A DNA stretch of 8,929 bases from Gemmatimonadota bacterium. Its GTDB lineage: Bacteria; Latescibacterota; UBA2968; UBA8231. Positions 1 to 8,929 of this stretch are shown one piece after another. Made by a program: the position numbers and the translations under genes. Numbering within the stretch: the stretch's first letter is position 1; each line of letters starts with the position of its first letter. The notes beneath the pieces are model-generated. The model did not search any database. It was not told the origin of the DNA and worked only from the letters and a program-made list of their open reading frames with translations. The stretch spans positions 1 through 8,929 of the forward strand of contig JAPOZF010000331.1 in NCBI GenBank assembly GCA_026706165.1, written 5' to 3'.

Positions 1-422
1 GCCATAGACGGAAACTCGGTCTGGTGCCCGATCCGGTTGGCGATGTGCTGATCGATGGAGATCCCGGCGCGGCTGTGGTCCCGTCCACCCGGCTCGCCGG
101 TGTACAAGGAGGCCACCTTCCCGGCGTGTCCCCGCAGCTTCTTCAAGTGGGGATGGGAAAGGTCCTGCAGGATGTTGACCTTGTGCTGGATCGGCCGGAG
201 GGGCTCCAGGGTCGGCTTGAGGGCGAGGGTCGAGCCCTCGCCGGAGGCGCCCCACTCATGGGTGTTGACGCCCAAGGGAAAGAAAGTCGCCAGGAAACGG
301 ATTGGCACCCCGGCCGCAACGTCTCCCACCGGCGCGGCCGCCACGCCGGGAATCGACTCCAGCCACGGGAGAGCCAAGCCTACCCCGGCGGCCCTCAGAA
401 ATGATCGACGATCTTGCAACAT
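1..422 (-). CDS. DUF1552 family Tat-exported protein (N-terminal part)
   Basis: The first 140 residues of a DUF1552 protein are visible; the gene runs off the left edge. Family members are usually a little over 400 residues, so roughly the first third is seen. The N-terminus has a twin-arginine signal (DRRSFLR, Arg5-Arg6), a hydrophobic stretch (residues 11-22) and an Ala-rich region near residue 30 where cleavage could occur, so export of a folded protein is likely. Family features follow: FFPLGVNTHEW (47-57), NILQDLSH (83-90), a YTGEPGG segment (107-113) and GISIDQHIA (120-128). The ATG at 422 is preceded by GGGGAG five bases upstream. The molecular role of DUF1552 is not established. In Planctomycetota and relatives such genes often sit beside DUF1592/DUF1588 cytochrome-like genes; any partner here would lie left of the window. 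Identification rests on recognising the family pattern. Confidence 0.88.
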   Translation of the reverse strand, partial: MLQDRRSFLRAAGVGLALPWLESIPGVAAAPVGDVAAGVPIRFLATFFPLGVNTHEWGASGEGSTLALKPTLEPLRPIQHKVNILQDLSHPHLKKLRGHAGKVASLYTGEPGGRDHSRAGISIDQHIANRIGHQTEFPSM

Positions 423-515
423 GGGCACTCCCCGGAGAAAACGTCCTTTGCCATCAAGCGGTCCGACGGCTCACGATGCTCCGGCACGAGCAGCGCCGTC
501 AACGCGATGACCGAC

Positions 516-566: not shown

Positions 567-1412
567 TTAATCGGGCACGGCCTCCGCCGGCAGATGCCGT
601 TCCATCCAGGCCTTGAGGGGAACATCCTCGGGTCCGGGCGAGGTGTAACCCATGCCGCCGGTGCCGGCGCCCAGGAGCTGCCGGCGAATGGGGCCACAGC
701 GATCCATCAGGTGACCTACGGTCATGTCGTCCCGGGGCCTGAGCCAGCGGTAGCTGTAACCGTAGAACAGGACTTTCCGCGTCCAGTCCGAATCGTTGGG
801 ACTGCCCGAGTGCCAGAGCCGCCGGTCGAAGAAGACCGCAGTCCCCCGCGGGACGCAGACGGTCAGGGCGTCGGCCGGGTCGGAGACACCGTCGTCAGGC
901 AGGGCCAATCGGTTGCGCCGGTGGCTTCCGGGCACGATGGTGAAGTTGCCGCAACCGGGTTGCGACGTGTCCGTGAGGAAGAAGCCGATCTTCAATGAGA
1001 CCCGCGGCCGGGGATCGCCTTCCAACTCCAGGTTCAGGCGGCCGCTGTCCTGGTGCCACTCCAGCCGTTTCTTCCCGGGCGGTCGAACCCGTCTGGGCGG
1101 TGTAATGATCATGTCGGTGTGGTAGAGCTGGATGTTCCAGCCGAGGATCCCCCACACCTTGGGGAACGTCAGAGGCCAATCCAGCAATCGGAGGAACAGG
1201 TCGTCGCGTCCGATGAAATCCAGGATATGGATCATCTCTCCGGCATCAATGCCGTTTGTCTGGCGATGCCGGTGATCGAGCCGGTCGACTACCGCGGCCA
1301 GATCGCCGACCAACGACGCCGGCAGGGCATCGGGAACGATGAAATAGCCCTCCTGTTCGAACTTTCGTCGTTCCTTTGCGGTGAGGCGATAGTCGAGACA
1401 ACCGGGTTCCAC
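567..1412 (-). CDS. PhyH-family Fe(II)/2-oxoglutarate dioxygenase
   Basis: A 281-residue cytosolic oxygenase of the phytanoyl-CoA dioxygenase (PhyH) superfamily, which uses Fe(II), O2 and 2-oxoglutarate to hydroxylate small molecules or lipids. The facial triad is present: His120-x-Asp122 in WHQDSG and the distal His201 in RLWHSGSPN. Arg212 in the following strand (WTRKVLFYGYSYRW) is the expected 2-oxoglutarate-binding residue. The N-terminal LTAKERRKFEQEGYFIVPDA segment is typical of the family. The reading frame is open up to a TTG at 1484. I prefer the GTG at 1412 because it has a purine-rich GAGGGGGAG nine bases upstream, gives an N-terminus only about ten residues before the conserved part, and the TTG has no ribosome site. 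The substrate cannot be read from sequence. It is transcribed in the same direction as the PKS genes but separated from them by a gene on the other strand, so a tailoring role is only possible. Confidence 0.9.
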   Translation of the reverse strand: MEPGCLDYRLTAKERRKFEQEGYFIVPDALPASLVGDLAAVVDRLDHRHRQTNGIDAGEMIHILDFIGRDDLFLRLLDWPLTFPKVWGILGWNIQLYHTDMIITPPRRVRPPGKKRLEWHQDSGRLNLELEGDPRPRVSLKIGFFLTDTSQPGCGNFTIVPGSHRRNRLALPDDGVSDPADALTVCVPRGTAVFFDRRLWHSGSPNDSDWTRKVLFYGYSYRWLRPRDDMTVGHLMDRCGPIRRQLLGAGTGGMGYTSPGPEDVPLKAWMERHLPAEAVPD

Positions 1413-1421
1413 TCTGTCCAA

Positions 1422-1430
1422 CTCCCCCTC
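1422..1430 (-). promoter_or_regulatory. Ribosome binding site deciding the PhyH gene start
   Basis: GAGGGGGAG on the minus strand, nine bases before the GTG at 1412. It supports a start 24 codons inside the longest open frame. No convincing -35/-10 pair for this gene was seen between 1413 and 1560. Confidence 0.45.
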
Positions 1431-1571
1431 GACTCGCTCGTCCGCGGCACATCGATGAAGTCTATTCCCGTGCCGGACTTCCAATCGATATCAGAACCGG
1501 ACACGGCAGACAAGCGCTGCAGATTCCGTTGGGCGTTGGGCTTGAGGTGGGTATGAGCCGGCCGGGGCAGG

Positions 1572-1580
1572 TGCTATGAT
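1572..1580 (+). promoter_or_regulatory. Extended -10 promoter element for the STAS gene
   Basis: TGCTATGAT combines the extended -10 TGn with a five-of-six match to TATAAT (TATGAT at 1575-1580). No good -35 is seen at the usual distance, as is common for extended -10 promoters. Initiation about seven bases downstream would leave a leader of about 30 bases that contains the ribosome site. The element overlaps the upstream in-frame ATG at 1576, which argues against that ATG being the start. Confidence 0.4.
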
Positions 1581-1605
1581 GTGGTCATCTATCAGCGAAG
1601 ACTTC

Positions 1606-1611
1606 AAGGAG
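1606..1611 (+). promoter_or_regulatory. Strong ribosome binding site of the STAS gene
   Basis: AAGGAG followed by six bases and the ATG at 1618. This near-consensus site selects that ATG over the in-frame ATG at 1576, which has no such site. Confidence 0.7.
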
Positions 1612-1617
1612 AAAACC

Positions 1618-2265
1618 ATGCCACCACTAATCAAATGGAGCCGAAGATCAGGAATTCTGATCGCGATGCCGGTCGGACGCATTGACGGAAGCAACTACCT
1701 CGAATGCCAGAACATCCTGGAGTCCGGTATCGATCCCGAAGAGGGCGCCCTGATTCTGGATCTTGCGCGCTTGGGCTACATCAGCAGCGCGGGCCTTCGC
1801 GTCTGCCTGGTCATTGCCAAGAAGTTCAACGAACCGGGAAAGGCCTTCGGCATCTGCAACCTCTCCAGTTCGATCCGCGACATCGTCACGGTCAGCGGCT
1901 TTGATCAGATTATCCCGGTGCACGAATCCCAGGGGGCGGCAATCGAAGCCATCACGGGGGTGACAGGCTTCGAAAGCGACCGGGCGGCAACTCAGGCGGC
2001 CAGCACCATCCCGACGAAGCGCGCGGTCAACTTCGATATCGTCGGTGAGAACATCCGGGATATTGCCAATTTCACAATCGAAAAATACGAATACAAGAAC
2101 GACAGAACCCTTTCCCTCCAGGCCCGGGAGGCGGCGATCGCCGGAATTACGAATGCCCTGTGGCGGTTCGTCGAGCGTTTGAGAACCCGGCGCCAAAAGA
2201 TTCTTGAGGAGATGTTCAACTCGGCTGAGAAGGCGTTGGACGAGGTCATCGCCAAGACGGATTAG
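1618..2265 (+). CDS. STAS-domain protein with helical C-terminal extension
   Basis: A 215-residue soluble protein. Residues about 5-115 form a STAS domain of the anti-sigma-factor-antagonist type: the GRIDGSNY segment (20-27), the buried strand ALILDLARLGYI (44-55) and the SSAGLR motif (56-61). Ser57 aligns with the phosphorylated Ser58 of Bacillus SpoIIAA, so control by a serine kinase of the SpoIIAB/RsbW type and a PP2C-like phosphatase is plausible; neither partner is in the window. The C-terminal part (about 140-215) is rich in charged and hydrophobic residues in helix-like spacing (for example FVERLRTRRQKILEEMF, 184-200). I do not recognise it; it could be an oligomerisation or partner-binding helix bundle. 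The start at 1618 is chosen from AAGGAG six bases upstream. The gene is divergent from the PhyH gene and convergent with the reductase-sulfotransferase gene, so it is probably its own transcription unit. Its target is unknown. Confidence 0.88.
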   Translation: MPPLIKWSRRSGILIAMPVGRIDGSNYLECQNILESGIDPEEGALILDLARLGYISSAGLRVCLVIAKKFNEPGKAFGICNLSSSIRDIVTVSGFDQIIPVHESQGAAIEAITGVTGFESDRAATQAASTIPTKRAVNFDIVGENIRDIANFTIEKYEYKNDRTLSLQAREAAIAGITNALWRFVERLRTRRQKILEEMFNSAEKALDEVIAKTD

Positions 2266-2331: not shown

Positions 2332-4836
2332 TCACGCATCGGGATTGCGAATTCCCCTGCGGGTAAGAAAGTCCCCGTATCCCGAGAATGCAGCGTTGAC
2401 CTCCTCGGAAGTCAAGCCGTAGTCCGCCAGATCGTAACGGTGTTTCGGCTGCTTGCGGCGATGCTGCGCTTGCTGGAACAGCCAATCGTCCATGGTGCTC
2501 AGGACCGACTGTTTGAGCGGCCAGTTGAACCGCTCGTAGATACTGTGCACCACGGCCAGCGGATCCTCCACCAGATCGACGTAGTTTACGTCCAGCCAGC
2601 GATGTTCCAGTTCGGGATGGGCTTCCCGGAACTTCACGCCCCTTTCCATCATTCCGCTCATAAATTCCAACAACTCCGCACCGAGGCTTTCCCGCGGCTG
2701 CGGTTGGACGGAAAGTGAGCGGGCCTTTTCCACAAAGCTGTTCCAAGACCCCATGAACTGGCTGGGGCTTCTGTGCGTCTGGATGAACAGGGCGTCGGGA
2801 TAGGTCTCGACCAGGGTCTCCAGCTCCATGAGGTGAAAGGGCATCTTGAACAACCATTGCCCGCGGTGACCAGGCGTCCGTTGCCGACGCTGCCAATTGT
2901 AATGCTGCATGATTCGGCGGTGGTGGGCATAGGCATGCCGCGAACCGGTGGCAGCCAGCCACCGGCCGAATTCGGGGATATGAAATCGAACGGTAGAGGT
3001 CCATGCGCCGAAGGCCATGTTCAAGATCGGGAAGTCCTCTGCCGGTTCGTCGATGTCGAAGTCGTGAACTCCTTTGAAGACTTCGATCACCCGGGACGAT
3101 TCGAGCATTTCCTTGACCCGCGCCCGGCGTGGGTCCTCCGGTGTACCGCCGATCGTGGCGTATTCCTCCTTTGGCAAGACCGGCCCGGCGTACTCATAGC
3201 CCCGCAACGACCAGAATCGCGGGTCCCGGGCCATGAGGCGATGCAGGTAGGTGGTGCCGGTTCGGTTGATCCCGACGATGAATACCGGTCGCGTGATCTC
3301 TTCCCTTTCGATTTCCGGGTACTGCATCCGTTCCCGGGCAAACCCGGCGTTATTCCGCAGGAGACGGCTGAAGTCGAAGACCAGTCCAGGAAGCTTGTCC
3401 TCCAGCAGTCTGACCTCGGAAGTTCGCACCGCGCGTACCAATTGCTCAAGGTTTCGACACATCCAGGCGGGATACGCCTGATCGAAAGAGACTCCGTGGT
3501 CCTCGGCGTAGCGCTCCGCCCGTGAGATCAGGCCGTCGAAGTCCAAGCGGCCCTGTGAAATGGGATGGGGCCATTGCCATTGGTGGTCCATGACCCACTG
3601 GTAGGAGTGTCGAAGCTTGGTCAGCACCCCCGGCCATTGGATCCGGTGCGGGCAGTCCTCCCGGAGCGCACGGTCCGAAATGGGAAACCGGTGCTGCGGT
3701 TTGTCCTGGCTGAACCAATACTTCGCAAAATGATCGAGCACCGCCCATTGTCCGTGAAGGGCCGAGTTCTCCATGGCCTGGCAGGCACGCTTGAACGACT
3801 CGTAGGACACCTCCGGCAGATAGGTCCCGAAATCGGCGAATTCGAGGTCGTAATAGTCCAGTTGGGGGTTGCAACAATGGTAGATGGTGAAACGCCGTTC
3901 GGGATTCAAGGAGATGGCCGTGCAGGCTCGGCTCAGCGTATCGACCGCCTCGTGGCCGGATCGAAAGTTGAGTCCTTCCGGGATGGTTTCGGACTCCAGC
4001 GCGGCAGCGAATATCTTCACCGCCAGGTCGCTTGCCCGGACGAAACCCGTACTGGAGATATTGACATGTGGCAGCCGGAATATCGCCAACGGCAATCCGG
4101 CCTGCTGCGCAAACAGAAGGACCTGCTCGGTTGCCAGCTTGCTCCACGAATACCCCAACAAACCGATCGGAAACTCTCGCTTCATCGTGTCGAGATCCGG
4201 TTGCGCCTGGTGGCCGATGGGTCTGTCCTTGAATTCGCGTGCGAAGGAGTAGAAATACTGCGGAAACACGCCCATGGTCGAGGCGTAGAACAGGTGCTTG
4301 AAGCGCCTGCGCAGACAGAGTTCCATCAGATTGCCGACACTGAGCGTATTGAGTTCCCGGATAGCCAGGTAGGAAGAAGAGAGATTGATATCGGCCGCAA
4401 GATGATAGACGGCGTCGATCCGCTGGCAATAGCTGTTGAATTCGGTTGCGCTCAGACCGAATCGGACTTGGCCGATGTCCCCGGCCACCGCGCGGATCCG
4501 CGGAGCGAACGTGTCCTCCCAGAGGTCCGCCTCTTGCAGGGCGGCGCGCAGGCGCTCGAATCCATGCTCTTCACTGTCGGCCCGGACCAGGCAGTGCACG
4601 ACCAGACGGAGATTCTGTTGAAGGAGGTCGCGCAGAAAGAATCGGCCGATGAAGCCGGTCGCGCCCGTCAGCAAGACCTCTCGGAATTCGGCCGGGGACA
4701 CCGGGTCGGCCGGCGGCTCCTGTCTGATCACGGCGCGGATGGACCGGCGCATGATCTCGACGTCCTTCTGACACTGCGGCGGCAACGTTCCAACGAGCGG
4801 CGGTATTTTGGTGTCGGGCGAGGAGAATTCAGTCAC
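2332..4836 (-). CDS. swfB: Thioester reductase-sulfotransferase fusion (SwfB-like)
   Basis: An 834-residue two-domain cytosolic enzyme. Residues about 50-420 form an NAD(P)-dependent thioester reductase (Male_sterile/NAD_binding_4 type, as in Lys2 and NRPS/PKS R domains): Rossmann motif TGATGFIG (57-64), Ser186-Thr187 in FYASTMG, and catalytic Tyr229-xxx-Lys233 in YSWSK. Residues about 430-834 form a Sulfotransfer_3-type domain: a helical lead-in, the PAPS 5'-phosphosulfate loop GINRTGTT (522-529), a K-x-P-x-H motif (Lys664-His668) and the 3'-phosphate pair Arg689 and Ser697, eight residues apart as in canonical sulfotransferases. The frame is open far upstream into the PKS gene, but the start is the GTG at 4836, with GAGGAA six bases before it and 44 bases after the PKS stop, implying one operon. 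The fusion and its position match SwfB of the sponge-symbiont swf operon as I recall it. Likely role: reductive release of the ACP-bound chain and sulfation of a hydroxyl. The order of action and the product are inferred. Confidence 0.92.
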   Translation of the reverse strand: MTEFSSPDTKIPPLVGTLPPQCQKDVEIMRRSIRAVIRQEPPADPVSPAEFREVLLTGATGFIGRFFLRDLLQQNLRLVVHCLVRADSEEHGFERLRAALQEADLWEDTFAPRIRAVAGDIGQVRFGLSATEFNSYCQRIDAVYHLAADINLSSSYLAIRELNTLSVGNLMELCLRRRFKHLFYASTMGVFPQYFYSFAREFKDRPIGHQAQPDLDTMKREFPIGLLGYSWSKLATEQVLLFAQQAGLPLAIFRLPHVNISSTGFVRASDLAVKIFAAALESETIPEGLNFRSGHEAVDTLSRACTAISLNPERRFTIYHCCNPQLDYYDLEFADFGTYLPEVSYESFKRACQAMENSALHGQWAVLDHFAKYWFSQDKPQHRFPISDRALREDCPHRIQWPGVLTKLRHSYQWVMDHQWQWPHPISQGRLDFDGLISRAERYAEDHGVSFDQAYPAWMCRNLEQLVRAVRTSEVRLLEDKLPGLVFDFSRLLRNNAGFARERMQYPEIEREEITRPVFIVGINRTGTTYLHRLMARDPRFWSLRGYEYAGPVLPKEEYATIGGTPEDPRRARVKEMLESSRVIEVFKGVHDFDIDEPAEDFPILNMAFGAWTSTVRFHIPEFGRWLAATGSRHAYAHHRRIMQHYNWQRRQRTPGHRGQWLFKMPFHLMELETLVETYPDALFIQTHRSPSQFMGSWNSFVEKARSLSVQPQPRESLGAELLEFMSGMMERGVKFREAHPELEHRWLDVNYVDLVEDPLAVVHSIYERFNWPLKQSVLSTMDDWLFQQAQHRRKQPKHRYDLADYGLTSEEVNAAFSGYGDFLTRRGIRNPDA

Positions 4837-4842
4837 GTCTTG

Positions 4843-4848
4843 TTCCTC
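4843..4848 (-). promoter_or_regulatory. Ribosome binding site deciding the swfB GTG start
   Basis: GAGGAA on the minus strand with a six-base spacer to the GTG at 4836, inside the 44-base gap after the PKS stop codon. It fixes the gene start 286 codons inside the open frame, the rest of which overlaps the PKS gene out of phase and shows no homology. Confidence 0.65.
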
Positions 4849-4880
4849 AATGGTGTGGATTCCGAACTGGCCTGTCGGAT

Positions 4881-7800
4881 TCAGCGAGTTGCGAGTTCCG
4901 CCAAGGAGCCCGGTTCGACGCCGAGATCCTGCGGGAAGTGGTCTTCGATCCGGTTGGCGAAAGCCGAGGGCGCACGGCGGACGTGCTGCCCGGCAACGCG
5001 GGCGACATCGTCGCGTCCGGCCGTTGCCGTTTTCGTCTCGTCCTCCTCGACATCCTGCTTTCCATGGATGATGTCCTGGGCCAGCGAGAGAGAGGAGGCG
5101 GTGGTCATCAGTTCCAGAGCACTGACCTGATAGTTGAACTGCATCCGTATGAACGCTCCGAGCTCGGCGACCGAGATGGAGGTCAGGCCGAAGCTGGACA
5201 ACGGTTCTTCCGGACCGCCCTCGTCGTGGCCGCACAATTCGGCCACCTTTCCCGCGATCTGCGTCACTACGGTGTCCAGCGTGAGTTGGCCGCCCACATC
5301 CACCGAGAATGCGTCCGCGTTGCTGAGCACCCGTCCGGTGCGCATGTAATCGGGCGAGTCGACCGTCATTGGCGGACGGGAGAAGACGGCGGTGATGAGG
5401 TGCTCCCGGTCTTTTGTACTGCGCATGGCGTAGTCCAGATTGCTGATGGAGAAATCGGCGCTGACCGGAGGCATGCCTGATGACCGGGTGATGCGCAGTA
5501 CGTGCAGATTGCGCGAGGCCATGCCGGCCTCGGCGACCGCGGCCAGGTTGTAGCTGAGAGCAGGCAGCCCTTCGCGGCGGCGGAAAGAGGCCAGCCCGTC
5601 CAGGAACCCGTTGGCGGCGCTGTAGTTGATCTGACCCGGGTTGCCGAACGTCGAGGCGACGGAGGAAAACATGACGAAATGGTCCAGGGCGCAATCGGCT
5701 GTCGCGTTATGGAGATTGAGGGCGCCGCACGCTTTCGGCGCGAATACCTTGGCCAGCGATTCGGGCGTCAGGTCGGCCAACAGGCAGTCGTCCAACGTGC
5801 CCGCGAGGTGGAACACGCCCTTGAGCGGTCGATCCAACTCGTCCACACACCGCCGGACGTCCGCCTCGCAGGCGACATCTCCCGGGACGACGTCGATCTC
5901 GATCTCCTCGGTGAGGTACCACAAGGCGCTGGTCTTCCGGATCCAGTCGGCAGTACGCCGGCGCTGCGGGTCGCGGTCCATCAGGGTGACGTGGCGTGCT
6001 CCCGCGGCCGCCAGATACGGCAGCAACAGCCGGCCGAATCCGCCGAAAGCGCCTGAGACCAGATAGGTCGCTTCCGGGTCGAGATACGGGCGCAGATCGA
6101 CGATCGGGAAGCCGGGCTCCGGCGGAGCTTTCAGGACCAGTTTCCCCGTGTGCCGGCCGGTGGTCATCAGGCGCAGCGCCCGGGCATATTCGCCATATTC
6201 GAAGCAGGTGATCGGCAATGGCGGCACGGCCTCCTGATCCAGCAGATTCATGCACTCCTGGGAAAGCTCACGCGCCAACCCCGGGTCGTCGTTCATCAGG
6301 CGGTCGATGTCGATGGCCGCGAAGCGAAGGTTCTTGCGGAAGACGCTCAGGCTGAGGGCGCTGTCGGCATAGATGTCCACCTTGCCGATCTCGCAGTGCC
6401 ATCCACCCGGCCGCAAAGCCTCCAGACAGAGGGCGATGTGACGTCCGGACAGGGAGTTCAGGACCACGTCCACTCCCTCGCCGCCAGTGGCCTCCATGAC
6501 CCCTTCGAACCAGTCGAAACTGTGGGAATCGAAGGCCGCTCGCACGCCCATCTCGCGCAGTTGTTGGCGTTTGCCCTCGCTTCCGGCCGTGGCGTAGATT
6601 TCGGCCCCCGCGTGCTTCGCCAGGGCGATCGCCGCCTGGCCGACACCGCCCATGGCGGAGTGGATCAGCACGCTTTGGCCTTTTCGCAGGCGTGCGAGAT
6701 ACACCAGGGAATAGTAGGCGGTGACATAAACCGAAAGCACCGAAGCGGCCTCCTCCATGCTCAGAGACGGAGATTTGACGAACACCAGGTAATCCTTGAC
6801 CACGGCTCGATTGGTGATGCAGCCGCCCTGGGTAAAGGCCACGGCATCGCCGACGCTGCAGGTGCGCACTGCAGGGCCGACGCGGCGTACGACACCGCTC
6901 GCCTCAATCCCCACCGAGCGGCCCAGGGCCGATCGCTCGTAGGAGAGTGCCGGAAGCAACCCCAGCGTCACCATGACGTCGCGGAAGTTGAGCGCCGCCG
7001 CCGCCACGTCGACCTCCACGTCGTACGGCCCCAGCGGGACGGGTTCACAGGTCTTCATCTGCAGACCGCCCACCTGGCCTGGATTGTCCAGGGTCAGCCG
7101 GTATGTCGAATTCTCCCCCGCCGGCACCAGAGGAGACCGCTCCCGAACGTGGATCAGACGCGGCGCCCACACCCGGTTGCCGCGTACCGCCAACTCGCGC
7201 TCGCGCAGGTCGCACTCGTCGAGCCAGGCCAGCGTCTTCAGATCCTCGGCGGCGCCCAGATCCACCAGCCGAAAATCGATGGCGGCTTCCTCGCCCACGT
7301 CCGCGGCGACCTCCTGGCTGATGCTGCGAAAGGCTCCCCACACGGCACCGCCACGCGGTTCCGTCACGTCCAACACGGCGCGGCGCGTCACCACGGTCAG
7401 GCGGCAGGGGCGGCGTGCGTGCTCCACGCGGAAGGGGACAAACGCCTTGACGAAAGAGACCAGACGCCTCACCAACTGCTGTCCGGTCGGGTCTTCCGGG
7501 TCGGCGCCGCAGATGATGTCGATCGCTTCCAGACCGGCCGCTCCGGGCCAGTCGGCGAGATCGCCGACTCGGTCGGCCTCCAGTTCCGAGTAGGAAATGG
7601 GGACCGCCTGAGACGCATCGAGGAATTCCAACCACTCGGCCGCCAAGCTGTCCGGTTCGCCGATGACCCAACGCGGCCCGGCGAGCCGGTGCGGTTCGGG
7701 CGGGTTTGCGTTCAGGTCCGGCGCCTGCAACAGAGTCGTCCTCCGGCCGGCCCGCACCGTGGTCCAGCCGGCGTCCGGCTCAATCGATGATCCATTGCCC

Positions 7801-8929
7801 TGGACCACCAGCGCCAAGCCGCCGGGGACCGCCAGCCGGCGCAGCAGGCGCCAATGTTCCGGTCCGAACGTCCGAGCATCATCATGGAGCATCAGGAGGT
7901 CCGCGGCATGCGGCCGTATCAGGCCGGTGTCCAACTCCGGCGCCTGGTCTGATGCGAGATCCAGGCGGGCGAAGCGCAGGACGGCATCCTGGCCATGAAA
8001 CGCGTCGTAGTGGGCATGGACCTGCTCCTCCGTGGCGCCCATCAGCCAGTACTCGGTTTGAGCGTTTTCGCCGGCCAAATGGTCGAGACATTGTTTGAGG
8101 ACGGTCTGCTCCGGGGTCCGTCCGCCCGCGATTTCCATGACGTGGCAAGCCCGGGGGGCGCCGGCAGGCTGCTCCAGGCCGGCGATCAGCGCCGCGGGCT
8201 CGATCTCGCCGCCCGGCGGGCCGTTCAACAAAGACTGCGCTTCTTCCACGAACTTGGGCTGCCACGAGACCACGTGCTTGCTGCGGGGCAGGTCATTCCA
8301 GCGCGGGTTGGAGTTGAACGAGACGTACGCGTCGATACACGCAACCAGGTCTCCGGTGTCTCCGTCGTAGAATCGGATGCTGCCCCCGGATCGTTCGCCG
8401 CGCCGTTCCGTGAACTGCCCCAGTTCGTTCACGTCCGCCCAGTCTTTCTCCTTCTTCACGTAACAGGTCAAACGCGGACCGGTCGGCGGACGCAGGAACG
8501 TCACTCCTTGAGCGCGCCGCGGCATGGCGAAGATGTCCGTCGCGCGGAGCAGATGATAGAGAAAAATTTGAAGTCCTCCGTCGAGCAGCGCCGGGTTCGC
8601 GACATACCCTTCCTGGCGGCCGGTCGTCCATAACTGCTCATCCATTTCGACGTCGAAAAGGTAGTCGGCCGAGTTGCCTTCCCACAGAACACGTTTGATG
8701 TTCCGGAAGTACGGACCGTACTGGAAGGTCTCGCCGAGGCTGGCGTCGATGCGCTCGTAGAAATCGCTCTCGCCCACGAAGTAGTAGGGCTCGAAACCGG
8801 TCGTATCGATATCCGCCACGCGCAACGGCACGTTCACCGGGAACTGGCTGTCCACCAGGCGTAACTTTCCGCGGGAGTGCATTTCACTTTGCGCCTCGGT
8901 TTCATAGGAACGGGACGAGGTGGTGAAGG
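4881..8929 (-). CDS. swfA: Mono-modular FAS-like type I PKS, C-terminal part (SwfA-like)
   Basis: The frame is open to the right edge, so 1348 C-terminal residues of a larger synthase are seen; KS, AT and the first DH half must lie beyond. Numbering from the Met codon at 8882, which is internal: DH second hotdog 30-195 with FQYGPYF (53-59) and catalytic Asp101 in LLDGGLQ; a degenerate methyltransferase remnant about 205-395; structural KR half about 400-580; ER about 590-918 with LNFRDVM (631-637) and the NADPH loop SAMGGVGQ (742-749); catalytic KR about 935-1125 with SGAFGGFG (943-950), an LDD motif (1030-1032), and Lys1050, Ser1074, Tyr1087 and Asn1091; ACP about 1200-1275 with attachment Ser1235 in GLTSIS. 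A 55-residue charged tail follows. There is no thioesterase. The domain order is that of animal FAS and highly reducing PKS, so a fully reduced acyl chain is expected. The swfA name rests on this order plus the downstream reductase-sulfotransferase fusion; related RkpA/WcbR capsule-lipid synthases are an alternative family. Confidence 0.92.
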   Translation of the reverse strand, partial: FTTSSRSYETEAQSEMHSRGKLRLVDSQFPVNVPLRVADIDTTGFEPYYFVGESDFYERIDASLGETFQYGPYFRNIKRVLWEGNSADYLFDVEMDEQLWTTGRQEGYVANPALLDGGLQIFLYHLLRATDIFAMPRRAQGVTFLRPPTGPRLTCYVKKEKDWADVNELGQFTERRGERSGGSIRFYDGDTGDLVACIDAYVSFNSNPRWNDLPRSKHVVSWQPKFVEEAQSLLNGPPGGEIEPAALIAGLEQPAGAPRACHVMEIAGGRTPEQTVLKQCLDHLAGENAQTEYWLMGATEEQVHAHYDAFHGQDAVLRFARLDLASDQAPELDTGLIRPHAADLLMLHDDARTFGPEHWRLLRRLAVPGGLALVVQGNGSSIEPDAGWTTVRAGRRTTLLQAPDLNANPPEPHRLAGPRWVIGEPDSLAAEWLEFLDASQAVPISYSELEADRVGDLADWPGAAGLEAIDIICGADPEDPTGQQLVRRLVSFVKAFVPFRVEHARRPCRLTVVTRRAVLDVTEPRGGAVWGAFRSISQEVAADVGEEAAIDFRLVDLGAAEDLKTLAWLDECDLRERELAVRGNRVWAPRLIHVRERSPLVPAGENSTYRLTLDNPGQVGGLQMKTCEPVPLGPYDVEVDVAAAALNFRDVMVTLGLLPALSYERSALGRSVGIEASGVVRRVGPAVRTCSVGDAVAFTQGGCITNRAVVKDYLVFVKSPSLSMEEAASVLSVYVTAYYSLVYLARLRKGQSVLIHSAMGGVGQAAIALAKHAGAEIYATAGSEGKRQQLREMGVRAAFDSHSFDWFEGVMEATGGEGVDVVLNSLSGRHIALCLEALRPGGWHCEIGKVDIYADSALSLSVFRKNLRFAAIDIDRLMNDDPGLARELSQECMNLLDQEAVPPLPITCFEYGEYARALRLMTTGRHTGKLVLKAPPEPGFPIVDLRPYLDPEATYLVSGAFGGFGRLLLPYLAAAGARHVTLMDRDPQRRRTADWIRKTSALWYLTEEIEIDVVPGDVACEADVRRCVDELDRPLKGVFHLAGTLDDCLLADLTPESLAKVFAPKACGALNLHNATADCALDHFVMFSSVASTFGNPGQINYSAANGFLDGLASFRRREGLPALSYNLAAVAEAGMASRNLHVLRITRSSGMPPVSADFSISNLDYAMRSTKDREHLITAVFSRPPMTVDSPDYMRTGRVLSNADAFSVDVGGQLTLDTVVTQIAGKVAELCGHDEGGPEEPLSSFGLTSISVAELGAFIRMQFNYQVSALELMTTASSLSLAQDIIHGKQDVEEDETKTATAGRDDVARVAGQHVRRAPSAFANRIEDHFPQDLGVEPGSLAELATR

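Follow-up and report, generated by a model that had tools for sequence, protein, structure and literature searches.

A swf locus of a Gemmatimonadota bacterium with a predicted route to an alkyl sulfate and a co-inherited STASC domain

The contig JAPOZF010000331.1 of a Gemmatimonadota bacterium (assembly GCA_026706165.1; 8,929 nucleotides, hereafter the window) carries the 3′ part of swfA, which encodes a fatty acid synthase (FAS)-like type I polyketide synthase (PKS), and swfB, which encodes a fusion of a thioester reductase (R) and a sulfotransferase (ST). Judged by sequence, the locus is a new member of the swf family, which is known and functionally unsolved. We hold with fair confidence that SwfA would make an acyl chain that is reductively released to an alcohol, O-sulfated and exported. 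The alkyl-sulfate chemistry has been in print in outline since 2013, when the authors who described swf suggested a primary sulphate (Della Sala 2013, PMC3908369); new here are SwfA-SwfB fusions, neighbouring transporter genes and genes for 3′-phosphoadenosine 5′-phosphosulfate (PAPS), and a co-inherited domain termed STASC. With the predicted product class, these turn an orphan cluster known since 2013 into an assayable pathway, and the natural fusions can be expressed as one protein.

An earlier note on this DNA had assigned the gene pair to swfA-swfB, and the identity of both proteins, their domain order and the position of SwfB in a tree bear it out. A search of 5.8 billion proteins with SwfB scored 7997 candidates and gave 588 relatives at E values up to 1e-20. 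The best 120 of these 588 are 60–94% identical to the query, and among the matches listed a full-length relative shares 94% identity with the window SwfB. A one-genome-per-species scan confirmed 112 stretches, of which the best 80 (L001–L080) are the related loci considered below; they carry eight phylum labels. The family as described comprises SwfA, with ketosynthase (KS), acyltransferase (AT), dehydratase (DH), enoyl reductase (ER), ketoreductase (KR) and acyl carrier (ACP) domains in this order, SwfB (R and ST), and sometimes SwfC (radical SAM and B12) (PMC3908369). The same paper calls the role of swf unknown, in agreement with the earlier note on product and role, and our literature search found no paper demonstrating a swf product.

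The swfA part lies at 4881..8927 on the minus strand (1348 codons plus the stop, which is the TGA at 4883–4881) and is open at the window edge. Pfam places on it the second half of the DH (PF14765, 8451..8768, with the D-x-x-x-Q motif; the first half is off the window), the ER (ADH_N and ADH_zinc_N, 6129..7091), the KR (PF08659, 5532..6071) and the ACP (PP-binding, 5088..5261, motif FGLTSISVAELG). The chain thus ends DH-ER-KR-ACP as expected of SwfA, and the Pfam scan of this part agrees with the prior claim that the synthase has no thioesterase (TE). It is 79% identical over 1343 columns to SwfA of L002, matching about residues 1019–2365 of the 2367-letter L002 row, and 46–79% identical to 52 long SwfA rows. 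SwfA of L002, a complete relative, is a single KS-AT-DH-ER-KR-ACP module. The synthase had also been called single-module; this holds for complete relatives such as L002 and goes beyond what the window can bear out, since KS, AT and half of the DH lie off its edge. The L002 protein carries HATGT, GHSSGE and IAFH. Across 53 relatives of at least 2000 residues, the KS motif HATGT is present in all 53, DPQ[IV]R in 23, and DPQQR and HGTGT in none, and the AT motifs GHSSGE, IAFH and CALVE in 51, 53 and 42, respectively. The residue preceding the active Ser of an ACP is usually Asp; the window has Thr here, and 68 of 73 SwfA rows have Thr or Asn, the other five comprising four without the pattern and one probably in a wrong frame. 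The E. coli ACPS failed to load SwfA-ACP and Svp loaded it (PMC3908369), and the Thr or Asn may bear on this difference.

A spacer of 44 bases (4837..4880) separates the swfA stop from the swfB start, the gap that had been reported before. The swfB gene (2332..4836, minus strand, 834 residues; Pfam and homologue alignment) has a GTG start, set at 4836 as the point where aligned homologues begin. Its R domain (NAD_binding_4, 3958..4671, Pfam 6.4e-48) contains TGATGFIG and Tyr229-x-x-x-Lys233, and its PAPS-type ST domain (Sulfotransfer_3, 2515..3288, 2e-31) contains GINRTGTT, His668, Arg689 and Ser697. A residue census used 80 rows, namely 79 loci and the window; L072, with a longest open piece of 542 residues, was left out of both the census and the tree described below, and L009, L037 and L060 entered both as partial rows (651, 674 and 691 residues). 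Census numbering runs eight higher than the numbering used here, and the denominators for Arg, Ser and His are the rows with a letter at that position. Tyr229 and Lys233 occur in 80 of 80 rows, as do the Arg, Gly and both Thr residues of GINRTGTT; Arg689 and the ST His each occur in 79 of 79 and Ser697 in 77 of 78, and both sets of motifs picked out by the earlier note are thereby confirmed. Three rows differ at the Asn of the 5′ site and one at the ST Lys. L028 swfB (9926-12376) has Ala at the Ser of the 3′ PAPS site, and no swfA was seen in the 9.9 kb upstream of it.

The window resembles the described clusters PS11G3, PSA11D7 and POR_0547-0550 closely: their SwfA proteins likewise end DH-ER-KR-ACP without a TE, their SwfB proteins are R-ST chains of 832–839 residues (834 in the window), and PSA11D7 has swfA followed by swfB with no swfC (PMC3908369). 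The STAS protein of pPS11G3 (P0222) is 42% identical over 91% to that of the window. Unlike in the described clusters, STAS and STASC are fused in the window in a gene convergent with swfB; no swfC is seen, and KS and AT are off the window. In 73 of the 81 loci (window included), swfB is preceded by swfA on the same strand. The order is A-C-B in 31, A-B with C downstream in 12, with C upstream in four and with C on the other strand in four; 22, the window among them, show A-B and no C. Five contigs (L008, L011, L013, L030 and L052) break off inside a swfC that precedes swfB, or no more than 0.33 kb ahead of it, so swfA is not seen, and L005 and L047 begin inside swfB. The SwfC gene of L022 hits the Pfam families of the described SwfC (radical SAM and B12). 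In two Saprospiraceae, SwfA and SwfB form a single open frame (L079, 3179 residues; L080, 3198 residues), and the L079 chain scans as KS-AT-DH-ER-KR-ACP-R-ST. These fusions are the best sequence evidence that SwfB would act on the ACP-bound chain of SwfA.

In the SwfB tree of 80 rows, the eight phylum labels require 17 changes, the minimum being seven. The window falls in a set of five rows with L001, L002, L003 and L005 (Shimodaira–Hasegawa approximate likelihood ratio test, 100), its companions being one Nitrospirota, one Latescibacterota and two Gemmatimonadota rows. Transfer of swf between symbionts is likely on this tree, to which mislabelled bins and paralogy can add changes; since the extra changes are such as horizontal spread would give, the swf product may be a trait shared by unrelated symbionts. 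The projects behind the metagenome-assembled genomes (MAGs) of the relatives are presumably sponge projects, and the window host is probably a sponge symbiont. Clusters of the same type have been reported from sponge-associated bacteria, as swf-like cluster families in sponge MAGs, including those of Nitrospirota, Latescibacterota and Acidobacteriota (PMC9426513), and as the swf cluster of Ca. Thalassonella (PMC10227082).

On the reading we favour, SwfA, which resembles animal FAS, would use its own ACP to build an acyl chain that is largely reduced, its domains presumably working iteratively. As SwfA has no TE, the R domain of SwfB would take over the ACP thioester and release it with NADPH. 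The best solved match of the R domain is MxaA (4u7w, 1.4e-37, residues 52–337), which performs a four-electron release to a primary alcohol; MxaA (4u7w/4w4t) is similar in its R domain, but serves a nonribosomal peptide synthetase chain and has no ST. R domains may stop at the aldehyde or go on to the alcohol (PMC12783407), and from family and motifs, SwfB would most likely transfer two hydrides and so release a primary alcohol. That hydroxyl would be sulfated from PAPS by the ST domain of the same protein chain, yielding a long-chain alkyl sulfate. SwfC, a B12-radical-SAM protein of many other members, may methylate the chain. Judging from relatives, the anionic product would be exported or set in the membrane via a neighbouring RND, MFS or NCS2-type permease, and STASC would be a dedicated helper whose likeliest jobs are regulation or permease coupling. 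Reductive release followed by O-sulfation, as the earlier note had proposed, is thus supported as the best reading of the predicted chemistry. Sponges, ascidians and echinoderms are known sources of aliphatic sulfates (PMC6780655), and the type I FAS of coccidia named in PMC3908369 has a C-terminal R followed by ST as in SwfB, a likeness by description to an enzyme that is eukaryotic and multimodular.

PAPS and transporter genes adjoin swf in part of the 80 loci. CysN/C-like genes lie 0.6–2.7 kb from it in six (L001, L009, L011, L012, L042 and L073), and Pfam reads the L011 gene as an APS kinase behind an elongation-factor-like GTPase; an APS kinase is present in all eight genomes tested. Transporter genes comprise RND (11), membrane-fusion protein (8), MFS (8) and NCS2-type permease (7). 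Comparing 320 kb of flank within 3 kb of the core with 377 kb beyond, near and far counts are 6 and 0 for CysN/C, 11 and 0 for RND, 7 and 1 (at 3.4 kb) for membrane-fusion protein, 8 and 0 for MFS, 7 and 0 for the permease and 33 and 0 for STASC, which is support and not proof because the CysN/C and transporter queries were drawn from swf flanks, favouring near positions.

This bias is one of several points that weigh against reductive release, sulfation and export as we read them. The CysN/C neighbours belong to three lineages only, four of the six (L001, L009, L011 and L012) being Nitrospirota. Fifty of the 80 loci have none of the four transporter families in the flank DNA examined, and the Pfam scan found no transporter or PAPS gene among the window proteins. 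A structure model of SwfB from 24 sequences was poor (mean predicted local distance difference test score (pLDDT) 57.5, predicted template modelling score 0.47) and was not used. The sequence does not separate two- from four-electron reduction. Expression of a swf cluster in E. coli gave no swf-specific compound (PMC3908369), and SupA and SwfA are said in passing, in a passage that holds no data and cites the 2013 paper, to make methyl-branched fatty acids (PMC9864124).

The STAS gene of the window (1576..2265, plus strand, possibly starting at 1618 going by homologues of 215 residues), on which the earlier note was silent, is convergent with swfB and ends in STASC, a C-terminal domain of 84 residues (2011..2262, plus strand) for which Pfam gives no hit at E ≤ 0.001. 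The model of the protein (mean pLDDT 82) consists of a STAS fold and a two-helix hairpin, the latter formed by STASC. Of the 81 loci, 36 have STASC at E ≤ 1e-5: in 28 it precedes swfA on the same strand, in seven (the window and six others) it is downstream of swfB on the opposite strand, and in one it is downstream on the same strand. At E ≤ 1e-8, 33 of the 80 loci have it at most 1.4 kb from swf, and these flanks contain none at a greater distance. Excluding the window, a STAS hit adjoins STASC in only 17 of 35 loci, some flanks being short, and for this reason we regard STASC rather than STAS as the constant element. An apparent mutual exclusion of STASC and RND or membrane-fusion genes (0 shared of 36 and 15 loci) was rejected, as L117 has an RND gene upstream of permease-STASC.

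Among 298 Gemmatimonadota genomes, swfB is present in 33 and STASC in 35, namely all 33 plus G206 and G283, in both of which STASC stands beside swfA on a contig that ends inside swfB or swfA. Counted strictly, STASC in 33 of 33 swfB genomes versus two of 265 others gives a Fisher P of 7e-42, phylogeny being ignored. Among 198 Nitrospirota, STASC occurs in exactly three, two with swfB and G385 with a swf remnant; a fourth match to the swfB profile, G459, scores 210 bits across the ST part and is apparently a sulfotransferase on its own. The remnant (L100, G385:C1, 10165-11144) joins the first SwfA residues directly to the SwfB ST region, has STASC upstream, and reflects either decay or an assembly error.

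That the STAS gene and STASC are bystanders or markers of sponge symbionts outside the swf system is rather doubtful given this proximity and co-occurrence. It would fit the 64 Latescibacterota, where STASC occurs in five of five swfB genomes and in four others without swfB, and the 39 swf genomes taken for a STASC-less locus or as control (L004, L032), only six of which carry STASC (two of 25 in the Pseudomonadota subset). It would also fit second STASC copies, which adjoin varied genes, and paralogues of the STASC-linked permease in the same genomes; the co-occurrence figures, moreover, take no account of phylogeny. Two regions with second copies are near CysN/C (L081 and L089). In L089 (G069:C67, 287-4782) a sterol-methyltransferase-like gene, CysN/C and a second STAS-STASC are clustered on the contig that carries swfB, about 34 kb away from it. 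Three Latescibacterota without swfB (L092, L093 and L094) have STAS-STASC and a permease 6–8 kb from a different type I PKS.

In Gemmatimonadota, 10 of 17 upstream regions have a PF00860 permease on the strand of STASC and at most 2 kb from it; none of three other upstream regions has one, and in four Latescibacterota without swfB the permease stands beside STAS-STASC. Over these 20 upstream regions, a STAS hit stands beside STASC in 11, the permease in 10 and both in four. In five of the 10 permease regions the gap to STASC is 0.12–0.16 kb, with no STAS in between. Permease-STAS-STASC-swfA as the usual order is ruled out, since only four regions have both STAS and permease. Among the matches listed, permease orthologues of at least 65% identity occur in 34 of 35 swf genomes (the 35th, G136, has one of 71% in L107), six other genomes have only paralogues of 43–47%, and such paralogues occur in swf genomes too, with at most four candidates scored per genome. 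An order of SupE-like permease, STAS, POR_0546-like protein and swfA can be read from ORF17-19 in Table 1 of PMC3908369, the text of which finds the clusters similar in the swf genes alone.

SLC26 transporters share the SLC23/UraA architecture and add a STAS domain (PMC6497670), from which the idea of a split transporter follows. Like the membrane part and STAS of SLC26/SulP, some swf operons hold a neighbouring PF00860 permease, STAS and STASC; unlike in SLC26/SulP, permease and STAS/STASC are separate genes, and several operons have no STAS between them. swfAB might then be the core of a larger device that belongs to sponge symbionts, has been transferred repeatedly and has so far gone unrecognised. 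In it, an alkyl-sulfate synthase would be joined by an NCS2-fold permease, STASC and, in about half, STAS; this split SLC26-type transporter, its permease coupled to the ACP by STASC or STAS, would export the sulfated lipid or import sulfate. We regard this as a doubtful proposal, and permease-STASC pairs without STAS lowered our estimate of it. The modelled STAS fold matches anti-sigma antagonists best and, among weaker matches, the SulP-type STAS of YchM bound to ACP (3ny7); Ser71 of STAS is invariant in 77 sequences at what we take to be the position of the SpoIIAA phosphosite. A regulator of the anti-sigma-antagonist type would be the plainer reading of the model.

The order of sulfation and release could also be reversed, as in CurM and the olefin synthases, whose ST likewise sits inside a PKS assembly line. 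The ST would then act on a beta- or other in-chain hydroxyl of the ACP-bound chain and R would act last. The product would be an alcohol or aldehyde that bears an in-chain sulfate or, if the sulfate is lost, an alkene; we consider this order unlikely. An iterative synthase may skip the DH and leave a hydroxyl, and most SwfA have another residue in place of the Gly in the DH motif HxxxGxxxxP, which is complete in nine of 53. The DH His and the ER and KR sites are nevertheless conserved in the alignment and D-x-x-x-[QH] is present in 53 of 53, from which one would expect a reduced chain. Sulfonation serves as activation in curacin A and is followed there by a TE, decarboxylation and sulfate loss (PMC3908369), whereas SwfB ends in ST and no TE domain is found in the SwfA part or SwfB. 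The only solved matches of the ST region up to E = 10 are 2zq5 and 2z6v (best 60 of 67 PDB sequences), and no ST of the CurM/olefin-synthase type is among them.

Just as unlikely, in our estimate, is a division of labour in which R stops at the aldehyde and ST uses another acceptor (a sugar, another lipid or the alcohol of another enzyme), so that the fusion would only co-localise two steps of a lipid pathway. This is compatible with R domains that halt at the aldehyde and with the likeness of the ST to 2zq5 and 2z6v, presumably mycobacterial enzymes with a substrate that is unassigned or a glycolipid. Some flanks do hold an aminotransferase (L019), an aldehyde dehydrogenase (L051) or a short-chain dehydrogenase/reductase (SDR; L002), and seven have an epimerase-type SDR, but no candidate for making an acceptor is spread across phyla among the annotated families, where the cross-phylum companions are swfC, STASC and transporters.

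A synthase that makes a lipid for capsular or other surface polysaccharide, as RkpA or WcbR, is very improbable: POR_0547/0548 were historically annotated as WcbR type (PMC3908369) and one locus, L104, has an Alginate_exp gene upstream, but no capsule gene is found in the window by Pfam or among annotated recurring neighbour families, and plasmid type I PKSs reach at most about 36% identity to the L002 SwfA KS-AT in the best 40 of 558 records and less than 60% in all 558. The swf/RkpA/WcbR neighbourhood of which the earlier note spoke is too loose a term, as the SwfA KS is clearly separate from WcbR and RkpA in PMC3908369.

Other neighbours recur near swf. An amidase-family gene is found in eight loci (L035, L043, L044, L046, L061, L066, L068 and L071; Pfam for the L046 member) and a beta-lactamase-family gene in seven; like the amidase, this gene and the epimerase-type SDR are mostly from Gemmatimonadota. 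A family whose L071 member has AlbA_2 and HATPase_c_4 is close to swf in five Gemmatimonadota (L061, L063, L064, L068 and L071). In the initial clusterings, some of the neighbour families turned out to be antisense shadows of swfB or the STAS gene; these were rejected. At the far end of the window, a DUF1552 (HXXSHH) protein starts at 3-428 (minus strand) and is cut by the window edge. Between it and the STAS gene lies a PhyH-type dioxygenase gene (567-1484, minus strand), relatives of which are also found in L006, L008, L010 and L080, three of these loci being Latescibacterota.

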